Of a stretch of 29,563 nucleotides of DNA, positions 15,385 through 28,079 are shown piece by piece. The position numbers were made by a program, and so were the translations under genes. This stretch comes from a virus: IMG/VR virus record IMGVR_UViG_3300017741_002240, positions 1 to 29,563 of that record; one strand, given 5' to 3'. The notes below the pieces were generated by a model that did not search any database, was not told the origin of the DNA, and was given only the letters and a program-made list of their open reading frames with translations. Every line of letters begins with the position of its first letter. Within the stretch, counting starts at the first letter, position 1.

Positions 15385-15850
15385 ACTACATCAATGGATC
15401 GCTGATTGGGTTGAGCAGTTAGACAAAAATAAAAAATGTCCTTATGCAAAACCAACATTTGATAAAAACAAAATGAAAGCAGTTATGTTAAATAGCATTG
15501 ACGCTTACCATTTCTGGTCAAGTGTATCTAATGAAGCAGAACAGTTTGACGACACTTACGATGTTGTTATTATAGCAATGGAAACAGATGAAACTATAAT
15601 TACCCCACAGCAAATGCAAGGCGGTGTAGATAGTTTTAACGCCGGCTATAATAATAGAAATATAGATTTGTGGTGTTTGAATCTATATAACGATGTATAC
15701 ACAATGGTATTAATCCAACGTGTAACTAAACTAGACGATGCAAGTAAGGCATTTGAAAAGAAAGATTATTACAAAAATCAACATCCTTACATGTATAATA
15801 AACACATAGTAACAAGAAGAAACATGAGAAAACGGTTGACAAAAACCTAA
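15371..15850 (+). CDS. Unknown protein ending at the folE promoter
   Basis: 159 residues. It begins KENKLHQWIADWVEQLDKNKKCPYAKPTFDKNK; a tryptophan-rich helix and a CPYAKP turn resemble small uncharacterised proteins with a CPFA/CPYA motif, but I cannot name the family. The middle (DVVIIAMETDETIITPQQMQGGVDSFNAGYNNRNIDLWCLNLYNDVYTMVLIQRV) is an alternating strand/helix fold. The end is basic (RRNMRKRLTKT). The last codons contain the TTGACA of the next promoter. It overlaps the oxygenase-like gene by 14 nt, suggesting a joint role. Confidence 0.65.
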   Translation: MKENKLHQWIADWVEQLDKNKKCPYAKPTFDKNKMKAVMLNSIDAYHFWSSVSNEAEQFDDTYDVVIIAMETDETIITPQQMQGGVDSFNAGYNNRNIDLWCLNLYNDVYTMVLIQRVTKLDDASKAFEKKDYYKNQHPYMYNKHIVTRRNMRKRLTKT

Positions 15851-15864
15851 ATACCTTATATAAT
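15836..15864 (+). promoter_or_regulatory. Consensus sigma70 promoter for folE
   Basis: TTGACA (15836-15841), 17-bp spacer, TATAAT (15859-15864): a full 12 of 12 consensus. The predicted start near 15871 gives a 39-nt leader with a small 5-bp hairpin (TAGAC 15875-15879 / GTCTA 15886-15890) and a ribosome site GGAGAG (15897-15902) 7 nt before ATG 15910. Unlike the promoters at 11057, 25712 and 28051, this one produces a normal leader. It should be read by host RNA polymerase early in infection. Confidence 0.85.
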
Positions 15865-15909
15865 ATTAACAATATAGACATCCACGTCTAAAACTCGGAG
15901 AGATTAAAA

Positions 15910-16620
15910 ATGGAACTAAAATACGAAGATGCAAGCATTTCAGAACTTATTAAAGAAAGGCTGGAAGACGCTGGCATGAGATATTGGGCTAATGATAATA
16001 TTAGTTCAGTACTAGAAGAAGGCGATAAAGAAAAACTAATTCAAGAAGCAATCCCCGCTTTTGAAAACGTGCTACAAAAATTATTGATAGATACTAAGAC
16101 AGATCCTAACAGTCAAGATACTGCAAGGCGTATGGCAAAGATGTATATCAATGAGATTATGTCTGGTCGTTATGATCCTATGCCTAACCCAAGTGCATTT
16201 CCTAACTATATCGAAAATGGTTATGAAGGCATGTTAGTTGTGCGTAGTGAACTTACAAGTTTATGTTCACATCATCATCAGACAGTAAAAGGTGTAGCAT
16301 ACATTGGTATAATTGCAGGACCTAAACTATTAGGACTTAGCAAGTATACAAGAATTGCACAGTGGTGTGCGATGAGAGGTACCTTACAAGAAGAACTTAA
16401 TGTTATGATTGCAAATGAAATGCAAAAGCAAACAGGTAGTGAACACGTAGGAGTATACGTTCAAGCAACACACGGCTGTTGTGAGAATAGAGGCATTAAG
16501 GCACACAGTAGTTTAACACAGACTACAGTGTTGCGTGGTGCATTCAAAGACGATCCGGCAACGAAGAAAGAGTTTATCGATAACGTTAAACTACAACAAT
16601 CATTTGCTTGCGGGAACTAA
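15910..16620 (+). CDS. folE: GTP cyclohydrolase I
   Basis: 236 residues. FolE opens the GTP ring to dihydroneopterin triphosphate, the first step to folate and, through QueD/E/C, to 7-deazaguanine. Motifs: LTSLCSHHHQTVKGVAYIGII with zinc ligands Cys119 and His122; LLGLSKYTRIAQWCAMRGTLQEELN at 140-164; GVYVQATHGCCENRGI with Cys190 as third ligand and His188. It departs from the usual sequence at CEHH (here CSHH) and at RR.Q.QERL (here MRGTLQEEL), so it is divergent but keeps metal and active-site residues. Several marine phages encode FolE. The next gene is a 7-deazaguanine precursor transporter, which favours the deazaguanine use. Confidence 0.92.
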   Translation: MELKYEDASISELIKERLEDAGMRYWANDNISSVLEEGDKEKLIQEAIPAFENVLQKLLIDTKTDPNSQDTARRMAKMYINEIMSGRYDPMPNPSAFPNYIENGYEGMLVVRSELTSLCSHHHQTVKGVAYIGIIAGPKLLGLSKYTRIAQWCAMRGTLQEELNVMIANEMQKQTGSEHVGVYVQATHGCCENRGIKAHSSLTQTTVLRGAFKDDPATKKEFIDNVKLQQSFACGN

Positions 16621-16641
16621 TTAACTAAAAGGAGAACATAT

Positions 16642-17328
16642 ATGTTCACAAAACTACTAGAAGGTGTTGATAAAACACTCGTAAGAAATCTAGTTATTTT
16701 ACACACGTTAGTAATTGCTGTGTCAAATTATCTAGTAACCATTAGGTTTGATCTATTCCCAGGTGCAGAACTGCCCTTGTTTGGATCATTTCCTTTAGCG
16801 GCGGCGGCGTTTACATTTCCGATCGTTGTCGTAGCAACTGACTTGACAGTCCGTCTTGTTGGTAAAGAAGCAGGAAGAGCAGTCGTAGCGATGGCTATTA
16901 TTCCGGCTATCGTTGCATCGGTACTTGTGCTATTAGCACTAGGTGACGAACATGCCTACAGAGTAGGACTAGCATCTGGTACTGCATATGCAGTAGGTAC
17001 AATGCTTGACGTATATGTATTCCAACATATTCGTGAACGTTACACACAAGCATGGTGGGCGGCACCAGCAATTTCAACTATTGTAGCCAACATCATTGAT
17101 ACATATGCATTCTTCTACACAGCATTTTATCCTGCGCCATGGGTTGGACCAGTAGCATTCAACAATACATTAACAAAAATTGTTGTAGGCTTAATTGTGT
17201 TCCTTCCAGCATATGGATTGTTACTTTCATTCTTAAAAAATAAGTTTGGTGTTGACGCACTTGTACTTAAAGACGAAGTAAAGCCAAAAGCAAAAGCAAA
17301 GGCTAAAAAGAAAGCAACAAAAAAATAA
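16642..17328 (+). CDS. yhhQ: YhhQ/VUT-family 7-deazaguanine precursor transporter
   Basis: 228 residues with about six membrane segments. Family pattern: LHTLVIAVSNYLVTIRFDLF, FPIVVVATDLTVRLVGKEAGRAVV, ASGTAYAVGTMLDVYVFQHIRER and STIVANIIDTYAFFYTAF. YhhQ (DUF165/VUT) proteins import preQ0 or preQ1 for queuosine, and phage copies accompany 7-deazaguanine DNA modification. A segment of four Ala codons is GCG repeated four times (16798-16809), striking in AT-rich DNA. The tail is a short Lys/Ala repeat (KPKAKAKAKKKATKK). Ribosome site AAAGGAGA lies 8 nt before the ATG. It follows folE by 21 nt, so one transcript is likely. Confidence 0.87.
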   Translation: MFTKLLEGVDKTLVRNLVILHTLVIAVSNYLVTIRFDLFPGAELPLFGSFPLAAAAFTFPIVVVATDLTVRLVGKEAGRAVVAMAIIPAIVASVLVLLALGDEHAYRVGLASGTAYAVGTMLDVYVFQHIRERYTQAWWAAPAISTIVANIIDTYAFFYTAFYPAPWVGPVAFNNTLTKIVVGLIVFLPAYGLLLSFLKNKFGVDALVLKDEVKPKAKAKAKKKATKK

Positions 17329-17861
17329 TGCTTTACACCGAGTCGTATGTAAAGCAACTACAAGGTGTTCATAGTTATGAACACAGACCTTCGGGTTTTG
17401 GCGCCAACACAAAGAAGTTAGGACAGTTTCATTACTACTTTGAAAAATGGTTTCCAGATAGTTTGTTAGACTACGGCTGTGGTAAGGGATGGATTTTAAA
17501 ATCGCTACAGGAAACGTATCCTACTTGTAATATGGTAGGATACGATCCTGCGGTTTTAGAATATAAACAAGTACCCAATAAAGAATTTGACTGTGTGTTT
17601 TGTATAGATGTATTAGAACACATAGAACCAACATGCATAATAGATGTACTACAACATATAAACCAATTATCGTCAAAGTATATATGGCTAAGGATAGATA
17701 CATTGCCTGCTAGAAAAAGATTACCTGATGGCAGGAATGCACATTTAATAGTAGAACAACCGCCTTACTGGTTAGACTTAATAGACAAGCACATCAAAGG
17801 TACAGTTGTTTACAAAACATTTGGAAAGAAATCTAAACTTGACATCGCAATCGAAAAATAA
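17328..17861 (+). CDS. Class I SAM-dependent methyltransferase
   Basis: 177 residues. SAM motif I LLDYGCGKG at 46-54, motif II end MVGYDPAV, and the FDCVFCIDVLEHIEP motif IV, followed by IWLRIDTLPARKRLPDGRNAHLIVEQPPYW, the substrate side. The NAHLIVEQP phrase recalls small-molecule methyltransferases of marine T4-like phages. Target unknown; both DNA modification and sugar modification fit the neighbours (folE/yhhQ before, sugar genes after). The start ATG shares a base with the transporter stop (TAATG). Confidence 0.8.
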   Translation: MLYTESYVKQLQGVHSYEHRPSGFGANTKKLGQFHYYFEKWFPDSLLDYGCGKGWILKSLQETYPTCNMVGYDPAVLEYKQVPNKEFDCVFCIDVLEHIEPTCIIDVLQHINQLSSKYIWLRIDTLPARKRLPDGRNAHLIVEQPPYWLDLIDKHIKGTVVYKTFGKKSKLDIAIEK

Positions 17862-19647: not shown

Positions 19648-19973
19648 AAGTAAGTATCAACGAAATAGGCGGCGAAGTTGCTAAACAAGATGAACGATAT
19701 GTTGTAAAAGATAACACAACACTAAAGAATTTAGTAGTAAGTAGTACTAGATTACAATCACGAAAATCAACATCAGGCCATAAGCATGAAGGCCAAGAAG
19801 AAGTATATTACTTTATTGAAGGTACTGGTAAGATGGAACTAGACAACGAAATGATTAAAGTTGAGCCAGGCGATGTTGTATTAATTGAAGACGGAGTATT
19901 CCATAGAGTACACGCCGGCATGCACGAAGAACTTTACTTTGTATGTGTGTTTGATGGAAGGAGATCACATTGA
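19644..19973 (+). CDS. Cupin-fold protein
   Basis: 109 residues, a full single cupin: GHKHEGQEEVYYFIEGTGKMEL (metal His, His, Glu) and PGDVVLIEDGVFHRVHAG (second box, His). The domain resembles sugar or small-molecule cupins found in LPS clusters. It has a clean cupin box, unlike the one at 14375. A ribosome site for kdsA (GGAAGGAG, 19956-19963) is embedded in its last codons, and the stop TGA overlaps the TTG of kdsA. Its place between PRTase and kdsA suggests a role in the same sugar pathway; the reaction is unknown. Confidence 0.8.
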   Translation: MKVSINEIGGEVAKQDERYVVKDNTTLKNLVVSSTRLQSRKSTSGHKHEGQEEVYYFIEGTGKMELDNEMIKVEPGDVVLIEDGVFHRVHAGMHEELYFVCVFDGRRSH

Positions 19974-20743
19974 GAATTATTGCAGGTCCATGTCAACATG
20001 AGACGCTAGAACAAAGTTTAGAAACAGCAAAGCATTGTGCTGAAGTTTGTAGTAAACATAATATTGAATATATTTTTAAAGCAAGTTTTGACAAAGCAAA
20101 TCGTAGTAGTGACCAAGGTGTAAGAGGTGTTGGACTACAAACTACTATGGAAGACTTTCGTGCGATTAAAGAACAAGTAGATTGTAAAACTATTACAGAT
20201 GTGCATAACCAAAATGAAATATTAAAAATTGCGGCATACTATAATGATGCTGTAGATGTTTTACAAATACCTGCGTTCTTATGTAGACAAACTGATCTCA
20301 TAAAGGCGGCTTGTCGCACAGGCAAGATAGTAAATATAAAGAAGGGACAATTTCTTGCTCCCTGGGATGTCAATGGTATACTAAGCAAGTGTGCTGACGC
20401 TAAAGAGATATGGATTACTGAGAGAGGAACTAGTTTTGGTTACAATAGCCTTGTGGTCGACTATACTGGTCTTATGTATATGCTCGATAATGTTGACGCT
20501 GATATCGTTTTCGATGTTACACACTCTGTCCAAAAACCCGGAGGACTTGGAACTAGTTCAGGTGGTAATAGGGATTACGTTCCTGGGTTGGCTCGTAGCG
20601 GGTCTGCTCTTGGGATCAGTTCCTTCTTCATTGAAGTACACCCATTGCCTGATCAGTCCCCAAGTGACGGGCCGAATATGTTACGACTAGATGATTTTGA
20701 GGAGGTAGTAAATGACATCGTCCGCTATTCTTATACCCGCTAG
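19970..20743 (+). CDS. kdsA: 3-deoxy-8-phosphooctulonate synthase (KdsA), metal-dependent type
   Basis: 257 residues. KdsA condenses arabinose 5-phosphate with PEP to Kdo-8-phosphate. Markers: AGPCQHE at 5-11; the family loop FKASFDKANRSS at 36-47; LQIPAFLCRQTDLI at 98-111; NIKKGQFLAP at 122-131; FDVTHSVQKPGG at 181-192; SSFFIEVHP at 218-225; DGPN at 233-236. Cys8, His185, Glu222 and Asp233 are the metal ligands of the metal-dependent class (Aquifex type); E. coli has Asn in place of the Cys. The start is TTG, set by GGAAGGAG 6 nt before it and by a first strand beginning RIIAGPC. It overlaps kdsB by 32 nt. Confidence 0.93.
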   Translation: MRIIAGPCQHETLEQSLETAKHCAEVCSKHNIEYIFKASFDKANRSSDQGVRGVGLQTTMEDFRAIKEQVDCKTITDVHNQNEILKIAAYYNDAVDVLQIPAFLCRQTDLIKAACRTGKIVNIKKGQFLAPWDVNGILSKCADAKEIWITERGTSFGYNSLVVDYTGLMYMLDNVDADIVFDVTHSVQKPGGLGTSSGGNRDYVPGLARSGSALGISSFFIEVHPLPDQSPSDGPNMLRLDDFEEVVNDIVRYSYTR

Positions 20744-21407
20744 ATACGGAAGCACACGATTCGAAGGCAAACCGTTGTGTATGTTGGACAACGTTCCTAT
20801 GATAAAACGTGTGTATGACGCTTGTATTGCGTCTAAGATACCAACATACGTGCTTACTGATGACATACGTATCTTTAGTTTGTTTGGTTCTAACAAGTGT
20901 TGGATTGAAGAAGAACAAATAGCACCATATGCAAACGGTACTGAACGATGCGTTGGCGCTGTAACAAAGTGGGATGAACTAAAACAATACGATCAGTTCA
21001 TTAACGTACAAGGTGATATGCCAGATGTTACACTACAAATGATAGAACGTTGTGTTGAGTGGTTGAAGTATTATCCTATCAGTACAGTATGGACAGACAT
21101 GCCAGAAGAAATGCAAAACAATCCTGACTCAGTTAAAATGGTTAGAGCAGGTGACCAAGCCCTTTGGTTTGGTAGAGGAATGACTGGCTACGGAGATTGG
21201 CACTTAGGTATATACGGATATAAACGAGAAGCATTAGAACTATACAGTGGTTTAGAAGTTACACAAGAAGAAGAAGTTGAAAAACTAGAGCAGTTACGTT
21301 GGCTAAAAAATGGTTGGCAAATAGGCTGTAGTAGTGTACAATTTAATGGTACAGAAATTAATTCACCAGAGGACGTCGATATATGGCACAATCAAAACTC
21401 CCAATAA
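20712..21407 (+). CDS. kdsB: CMP-Kdo synthetase (KdsB)
   Basis: 231 residues (E. coli 248). The enzyme activates Kdo with CTP. The nucleotide loop IPARYGSTRFEGKPL is at 8-22, followed by YVLTDDIRI, the GTERC segment near 76-80 (GTDR in the family) and the metal motif INVQGDMPD at 97-105 (INVQGDEP in the family). The EEEVEKLEQLRWLKNGWQI stretch near 187-205 matches the conserved EKLEQLR helix. AGGAGG lies in the kdsA 3' end just before ATG 20712. Paired with kdsA this gives two of the three steps from arabinose 5-phosphate to CMP-Kdo; the HAD protein at 18117 could be the third. Confidence 0.9.
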   Translation: MTSSAILIPARYGSTRFEGKPLCMLDNVPMIKRVYDACIASKIPTYVLTDDIRIFSLFGSNKCWIEEEQIAPYANGTERCVGAVTKWDELKQYDQFINVQGDMPDVTLQMIERCVEWLKYYPISTVWTDMPEEMQNNPDSVKMVRAGDQALWFGRGMTGYGDWHLGIYGYKREALELYSGLEVTQEEEVEKLEQLRWLKNGWQIGCSSVQFNGTEINSPEDVDIWHNQNSQ

Positions 21408-26856: not shown

Positions 26857-27078
26857 ATGACTGAGTTTACAAAAGGTATAGGTAGCATATTCAAAAATAA
26901 TAGCCTTGCACTAGCAGTAATCTATACGCTAGGACATGTTGTTATTGCTATGACAGTTGTTAGTATGATGACTGGCGCAAGCCTATGGGAAGCAGGTGCA
27001 GTTGCACTAGTTGAACCTGCAATTAACGGTGTATGGTTTTATGTACTGCACTCATTATGGAAGAAATTTAATACATGA
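26857..27078 (+). CDS. DUF2061-like small membrane protein
   Basis: 73 residues. Two membrane segments: SLALAVIYTLGHVVIAMTVVSMM and ASLWEAGAVALVEPAINGVWFYVLHSLWKKF. The second carries the VEPAINGVWFYVLHSLWKK phrase that matches DUF2061 (VE...K...YYLHE..W). Function of DUF2061 is unknown. The ATG at 26857 or a TTG at 26854 could be the start; AAGGAG (26839-26844) is 12 or 9 nt before them. It overlaps the carbamoyltransferase start by ATGA. Confidence 0.7.
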   Translation: MTEFTKGIGSIFKNNSLALAVIYTLGHVVIAMTVVSMMTGASLWEAGAVALVEPAINGVWFYVLHSLWKKFNT

Positions 27079-28079
27079 ACATAACATGGGGTGTGGTTGG
27101 AAACAGTCACGATGCTAGTCTGGCAGTGTTTAATACAAGACTTGCCGGTCTAACAGATCATTACACAACAGAATTACTTTGGGCAAGTTTATCTAAAGAC
27201 TTTTCAAAAATTCCTAATGACCCTCACTTAAACCAAATGCAAGTTGATGTAGCAATACAAAGTTTTGGTAGACCAAATAAAGTTGTTTGGTACGAACGTC
27301 CATTACTTAAGACATGGCGTCAATGGCGAGCAGGCCAGGGTTGGTTATATAAAGAAAATAATATTAAAGAATATCTCAAACGTTGGGATATAAACTGTAA
27401 GATTGAATACACCCAACACCATCTTTCACATGCGGCATATGCGTACTACACTCAACCCTATGACGACTGTGCAGTGATTTGTTTAGATAGTATTGGAGAG
27501 TTCGAGACCCTAACAGTATGGCACGGGAAGAACAACAAACTTGAACAAGTATACAGCCAAGGGTATCCGCATAGCCTAGGACTTTTTTATAGTGCTATGA
27601 CACAGCGTATGGGGCTAGTGCCACAGCGTGATGAATATCTTGTTAGCCAGTGGGCAAAAAAAGGCGACCCTAAACGTTTATTACATGACATGCGTAAAGA
27701 ACTTATCGACGTTGATCATGATAAGGCTAACCCACAAGAAATAAGAATGAGAGAGAACATGCACCGTGGATGTATGTGGTGGAGGCCTGAATTAGAATCA
27801 AAACAAGACATGTATGATATAGCGGCCGCTACACAGTTCTTGTTTGAATATGCAGTAAATATACTAAGCATATATGCAAAATTAACTACAGGTTCAAAAC
27901 ATATTGCATTAGCAGGTGGTGGTGCTCTTAATAGAGATGCAATAGAGAAAATTAAACCTCATTGGGATACAGTATACGTACCAACTAATCCAGGCGATCC
28001 TGGTAGTTGTATAGGTGCTGTAGTAGCAAAAAGTAAACAAAAAATAGTGCTTGACAAACAGTGGTATCAGAAAGTATAA
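27075..28079 (+). CDS. NodU-family carbamoyltransferase, N-terminal domain only
   Basis: 334 residues, corresponding to the Kae1-like N-terminal domain of NodU/TobZ proteins (full length about 570). Present: MNITWGVVGNSHDASLAVF, the metal motif HHLSHAAYAYY near 115-125, CLDSIGEFETLTVWHG, YPHSLGLFYSAMTQRMGL and the ATP site ALAGGGALNRDAI followed by VPTNPGDPGSCIGAV. The C-terminal YrdC-like domain, which makes carbamoyl-AMP, is missing, and the next gene is the helicase, so no partner is adjacent. In marine T4-like phages NodU-like proteins recur; the acceptor (sugar, nucleobase, protein) is unknown. Its stop lies within the -10 box of the gp41 promoter. Confidence 0.85.
   Translation: MNITWGVVGNSHDASLAVFNTRLAGLTDHYTTELLWASLSKDFSKIPNDPHLNQMQVDVAIQSFGRPNKVVWYERPLLKTWRQWRAGQGWLYKENNIKEYLKRWDINCKIEYTQHHLSHAAYAYYTQPYDDCAVICLDSIGEFETLTVWHGKNNKLEQVYSQGYPHSLGLFYSAMTQRMGLVPQRDEYLVSQWAKKGDPKRLLHDMRKELIDVDHDKANPQEIRMRENMHRGCMWWRPELESKQDMYDIAAATQFLFEYAVNILSIYAKLTTGSKHIALAGGGALNRDAIEKIKPHWDTVYVPTNPGDPGSCIGAVVAKSKQKIVLDKQWYQKV

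Follow-up and report, generated by a model that had tools for sequence, protein, structure and literature searches.

The DNA analysed here, referred to as the window, covers 29.6 kb of a larger genome from an uncultured marine bacteriophage (an IMG/VR record). As it is a fragment, genes missing from it say little. On its forward strand, folE (15910-16620) and yhhQ (16642-17328) are separated by 21 nt. The FolE product, a GTP cyclohydrolase I of 236 aa, was assigned to PF01227 (E 3.8e-37; 127.9 bits, cut-off 27), also matches phrog_2197, and retains the Zn ligands and the catalytic motifs CxHH, GLSK and HxC when aligned to E. coli FolE. It scored below the NCBIfam FolE equivalog cut-offs (136 vs 202; 116.7 vs 181.6). 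The second product (228 aa) is a member of the YhhQ/COG1738 (QPTR) family of 7-deazaguanine-precursor transporters and passes TIGR00697 (93.3 bits vs a cut-off of 50.95) and PF02592 (74.4 vs 27.2). Its best E-value was obtained with NF008406, the model for the 7-cyano/7-aminomethyl-7-deazaguanine transporter, at a score of 136, which lies under the cut-off of 252. E. coli YhhQ is an experimentally tested queuosine-precursor transporter (PMC5372724), and the substrate differs among members of the family (PMC11130926). When the phage YhhQ was used as a query against bacterial genome contigs, no bacterial relative was found. A class I SAM methyltransferase gene (17328-17861, forward strand; PF13489, 8.2e-13) overlaps the yhhQ stop codon and adjoins yhhQ in loci L004 and L005 too; it is possibly co-transcribed with folE-yhhQ, and its membership of the module is uncertain.

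The pair is preceded by a sigma70-type promoter, TTGACA-17-TATAAT (15836-15864, forward strand), which matches at 12/12 positions. Together with the family matches, this bears out the initial annotation, which had described folE and a YhhQ-type transporter gene under an exact promoter. The window holds four promoter-like sites with at most one mismatch, against 0.69 expected, and two further sites match at 12/12 (25712, 17-nt spacing; 28051, 18-nt spacing), so that an exact match by itself is weak evidence. The promoter upstream of folE is kept at 12/12 in L050, L083, L084, L004 and L005 and at 11/12 in L017, and it is missing from the yhhQ-only loci among relatives. This conservation before folE and absence at yhhQ-only loci is stronger evidence than the exact match.

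A leader RNA upstream of folE

Between the promoter and the folE start codon at 15910 lies an RNA hairpin, TAGAC-AUCCAC-GUCUA (15875-15890, forward strand), with a covarying 4-bp stem and a constant loop, AUCCNC. It is followed by the sequence UCGGAG (15895-15900), which holds the Shine-Dalgarno GGAG and is invariant in the alignment (A4). All 88 hairpins with a GGAG tail in the fetched loci, many of which were fetched because they hold folE, lie upstream of folE. Permuted loops gave 0-7 matches compared to 91 for the true loop. A stem-free pattern scan of viral contigs returned at least 80 loci; 62 of those listed precede folE, and all 62 can pair over at least 3 bp. Among the listed loci with a stem of at least 4 bp, 55/61 precede folE. 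In the other six, the hairpin and UCGGAG stand before a different protein of about 130 aa in L415 (reverse strand) and L438 (L438:1451-), the next ORF stops after 17 codons in L437, and the sequence ends near the hairpin in L367, L439 and L442.

In 30 hand-chosen folE-linked sequences, the four pairs were 98.3% paired with a covariation of 1.013, compared to 0.169 after shuffling; in the unselected set of 118 sequences, which includes chance matches, 93-108 were paired at the four positions. A covariance model gave eight strong matches in 1.23 Mb (E <= 1.5e-11; next best 0.46), some of which are one record counted twice. Strong matches occur only upstream of folE, with a single one in the 236-kb G018. 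No Rfam family matched at the gathering score in the window or in L017, L078, L087, L119 and L161. By folding energy the window hairpin does not stand out (z -0.42); the case for it rests on covariation. We propose, from the sequence, that an H-type pseudoknot could form between UCC in the loop and the Shine-Dalgarno GGA.

PreQ1-I riboswitches are likewise small leader RNAs, on queuosine genes, that involve the ribosome-binding site. The leader also resembles the THF-II RNA (folE motif; PMC6800512), a small leader RNA on folE involving the ribosome-binding site. In THF-II, however, this site is in stem P1, whereas here it lies 3' of a single hairpin that has no Rfam match. The covarying folE leader is a candidate regulatory RNA in viruses with near-total loss of specific restriction sites.

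Pathway genes and c7 in related phages

The initial annotation had found queD, queE, queC and dpdA lacking from the window, which holds within the 29.6-kb fragment, and had suggested searching for them in the rest of the genome. The search was run on records of relatives. QueE was detected in 24/49 IMG/VR records (E<1e-50) and QueD in 9/49. In contrast, no convincing QueC was present in the scanned whole records of relatives, with no match in G018, G015, G028, G066, G029, PA5oct or Phosso; the QueC search controls W01, W02 and W05 were positive at E<1e-50. Weak QueC-like matches in G004, G047, G048 and others (E 1e-8 to 1e-3, 20-80 aa) were attributed to chance or to unrelated ATPases. The known DpdA models phrog_887 and phrog_7068 detected no DpdA among relatives, and the Vid5 control was positive with phrog_7068.

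The missing insertion enzyme now has a candidate, c7, which was out of reach of the initial annotation and is unmatched in three public family libraries (Pfam, PHROGs and NCBIfam). It is encoded, for example, at L078:3267-4721 and, in phage PA5oct, as EST35_0316. This protein of about 485 aa was found by reading motifs in the replication module after the PHROG DpdA models had given nothing, and it keeps the TGT motifs DSGG (DSGGFQ), LQG and FDCASP. Residues D100, S101, G102, G103, Q105, D145, Q194, G195 and D292, which we take to correspond to the TGT catalytic residues, are invariant in an alignment of 26 marine c7 proteins. The ten best PDB structure matches of an AlphaFold2 model of c7 (pLDDT 89.4) were all TGTs (E 3.5e-6), with a Z of 19.8 across 299 residues. 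Viral structure matches include the Motura TGT and nt-1 R9TGF0, presumably the nt-1 DpdA2 described in PMC6884629. A c7 profile matched a GR7B 'TGT domain' protein (probability 96.7) and found nothing among PDB sequences, the TGT likeness there coming from the fold alone. Neither phrog_887 nor phrog_7068 matched c7, and c7 and the Vid5 DpdA gave no sequence alignment; c7 could consequently act on tRNA rather than on DNA. These motifs and the modelled fold suggest that c7 is a candidate divergent DpdA that would insert the base into DNA. The sequence comparison covered phrog_887, phrog_7068 and the Vid5 DpdA; work on phage 7-deazaguanines published in 2023 reportedly deals with dCDG, dDG, DpdL and DpdA3.

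FolE and c7 occur together: c7 is present in 25/29 of the FolE-bearing IMG/VR records searched, the other four being fragments whose FolE lies at the window-type locus, and in every record whose FolE occupies its usual place. That place is a replication module (pol, clamp, c7, c14, c3, c6, FolE, QueE), and YhhQ in relatives is usually found at the window-type locus, unaccompanied by FolE. In 59/59 related loci reaching far enough, c7 directly follows the clamp, in a sample biased by a clamp profile built for fetching from c7-linked clamps. Between FolE and QueE, a conserved phosphoribosyltransferase (c5, xanthine/hypoxanthine-PRT-like; L078:12555-13115) and a HIT protein (c18; L078:14984-15415) recur and could act on the modified base.

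A single contig, G018 (236,751 bases), which could be misassembled, holds the window-syntenic locus uvsX-uvsW-cupin-yhhQ-kdsA (42.8-66 kb), QueD (158.8 kb) and pol-clamp-c7-FolE-QueE (210-226 kb). Among the records scanned, a FolE at the window-type locus was never on the same contig as c7, QueE or QueD; the records with FolE at that locus (G001, G003, G007 and G008), each a fragment, have none of the three. In G053 (L208), c7 and QueE are present and FolE is absent within 45 kb, which is consistent with relocation of FolE. The nearest cultured match to the window DnaB is that of the Pseudomonas jumbo phage PA5oct (55.6%). PA5oct has homologues of the c7-locus clamp, c7 and QueE in the order pol-clamp-c7...QueE, carries FolE-QueD elsewhere and lacks QueC; unlike the window, it has no YhhQ, and no AUCCNC hairpin was found before its folE. 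An unannotated c7 homologue (35.6%) occurs in PA5oct and in two further cultured Pseudomonas jumbo phages, MIJ3 and Paride, so that their DNA is directly testable. The window's own genome presumably also encodes c7, QueE and QueD.

On the FolE tree, the window FolE groups with those of L002, L050 and L083 (support 100/99) and next with the c7-locus FolEs L085 and L086 (97/93), and is thus nested inside the c7-locus FolE clade. FolE-YhhQ adjacency required nine changes at the c7 locus (eight forced) and four at the window-type locus (two forced); it is recurrent across the tree. In L083, the position between folE and p17806 is taken by an NCS2 permease (PF00860, 6.8e-49; L083:3745-5037). Many permease loci show the same cupin-X-p17806 slot, others have the permease beside folE or c7, and yhhQ is nearby in 0/80 of them. 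The interchange of YhhQ and an NCS2 purine permease in one slot supports a role in base import, and in L055 the gene after YhhQ encodes a PnrA-like receptor. The bacterial permeases closest to the phage NCS2 proteins are mainly from SAR11 (78-85%), which, as the signal of one gene, suggests a SAR11 host for these phages.

Probable supply of a 7-deazaguanine base, and alternatives

We considered these results, namely the gene identities, the module linkage in relatives, the TGT fold and motifs of c7, the absence of QueC, the transporter interchange and the hairpin covariation, alongside four readings of the locus. We favour, with a probability of roughly 0.63, the reading in which FolE and YhhQ form the supply side of a pathway by which the phage modifies nucleic acid, most likely its own DNA, with 7-deazaguanine. 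The strong host-type promoter would drive folE-yhhQ early in infection, and FolE would convert GTP to 7,8-dihydroneopterin triphosphate. QueD and QueE, whose genes would lie in other parts of the genome, would turn this into 7-carboxy-7-deazaguanine (CDG). YhhQ would import ready-made 7-deazaguanine or guanine-like bases, as the NCS2 purine permease would in sister phages. The divergent TGT-fold enzyme c7, encoded beside the polymerase clamp, would then swap guanine in DNA for the base, its substrate presumably being DNA rather than tRNA. The hairpin, possibly a pseudoknot, including the ribosome-binding site, would tune FolE output.

The 7-deazaguanine supply proposed by the initial annotation thus gains QueE, QueD and a TGT-fold candidate in relatives, and it loses preQ0 as a phage-made product. 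With QueC lacking, the chain to preQ0 is incomplete, and YhhQ is known for preQ0/preQ1. The base is hence expected to differ from preQ0 made by the phage itself, and it would probably be CDG-derived, host-finished or imported. The identity of the base, like what the leader RNA senses, is something we infer. Both dCDG and dDG have reportedly been found in phages. For phages that lack QueC alone, CDG use has been predicted (PMC6884629), and in a Vibrio phage, a related pathway that includes QueF yielded 15% dPreQ1 by mass spectrometry (PMC12028318). A more speculative proposal, to which we give less than even odds, is that marine, likely SAR11-infecting jumbo phages carry a QueC-less, CDG-type DNA modification with a new clamp-coupled DpdA subfamily, and that a new AUCCNC RNA class sets FolE translation as a riboswitch or protein operator, maybe folding onto the Shine-Dalgarno sequence.

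Queuosine precursors for tRNA would offer another use for these genes: c7 would be a tRNA TGT, or FolE and YhhQ would feed the host TGT, giving better decoding during infection. Such a role has been proposed for phages with pathway genes and without DpdA (Hutinet et al., PMC6884629), the best structure matches of c7 are tRNA enzymes, and the tested function of E. coli YhhQ would fit (PMC5372724). We regard this as unlikely, however, as in all 59 loci c7 accompanies the polymerase clamp rather than tRNA genes, of which the window has none, the module is without QueC in a search that covered QueC, QueD, QueE and DpdA, and the c7 structure also matches R9TGF0, from a phage with DpdA2 (PMC6884629). 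Ordinary purine salvage, in which YhhQ and NCS2 would import guanine or hypoxanthine for dNTP supply and FolE would be unrelated, appears improbable. It draws on the purine permeases among NCS2 (PF00860) members, on the SAR11 origin of their nearest bacterial copies and on a PnrA-like receptor that follows YhhQ in L055, but a permease or YhhQ adjoins folE or c7 in many loci, and the best E-value of the window YhhQ is with a 7-deazaguanine transporter model.

A FolE that serves folate, for dTMP synthesis, with YhhQ a neighbour by chance, seems improbable too. FolE is common to folate synthesis and a lone FolE is ambiguous (PMC6884629), THF-II riboswitches lie upstream of folE in Rhizobiales (PMC6800512), and in PA5oct a thymidylate synthase gene stands two genes before FolE. 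Against this, FolE-YhhQ adjacency recurs, FolE has QueE neighbours and co-occurs with c7, and a purine permease substitutes for YhhQ. That FolE serves folate alone in the window's own species is unlikely.

The favoured pathway resembles the phage 7-deazaguanine systems of 9g, CAjan and nt-1 (Hutinet 2019, PMC6884629) in combining, in relatives, FolE, QueD and QueE with a TGT-fold enzyme, and YhhQ is known in some such phages. Unlike those systems, it has no QueC, its TGT-fold enzyme lies outside the known PHROG DpdA families and beside the polymerase clamp, folE carries a leader RNA, and YhhQ is interchangeable with an NCS2 permease. FolE and YhhQ also cluster with QueD and QueE in Pantoea phage Vid5 and Providencia phage PSTCR4; Vid5 differs in having its own QueC-type protein as well as a DpdA matching phrog_887.

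The avoidance of AGCT and GCWGC claimed earlier is real. The window contains one AGCT compared to about 100.7-102 expected and no GCWGC compared to about 28 (27.6), and both deficits persist against shuffles of the coding genes that preserve codons (AGCT 0 vs 73; GCWGC 0 vs 26.8). Site loss and base modification had been proposed as two layers against restriction. The coexistence of site loss and module is seen in L078 and L092, which have neither AGCT nor GCWGC alongside c7-FolE-QueE, but the two are not strictly coupled, as G018 has the full module and no GCWGC avoidance (410 vs 380 expected). The sites lost differ among relatives (TGCA 4 vs 85 and GCGC 0 vs 11 in L158; GCWGC 0 vs 119 in G006). 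Since avoidance of AGCT/GCWGC sits beside the module, the modification, if any, is probably partial, site-restricted or unprotective at these sites. With site loss and the gene module in one phage group, loss of sites can be weighed there against base modification.

Elsewhere in the window, the genes at 19970-21407 encode KdsA, which passes two NCBIfam equivalog cut-offs, and a KdsB-like protein, which scores below cut-offs, beside several glycosyltransferase-like genes, suggesting a KDO/sugar-synthesis module. A protein with a carbamoyltransferase N-terminal domain (27075-28079; PF02543) adjoins DnaB.
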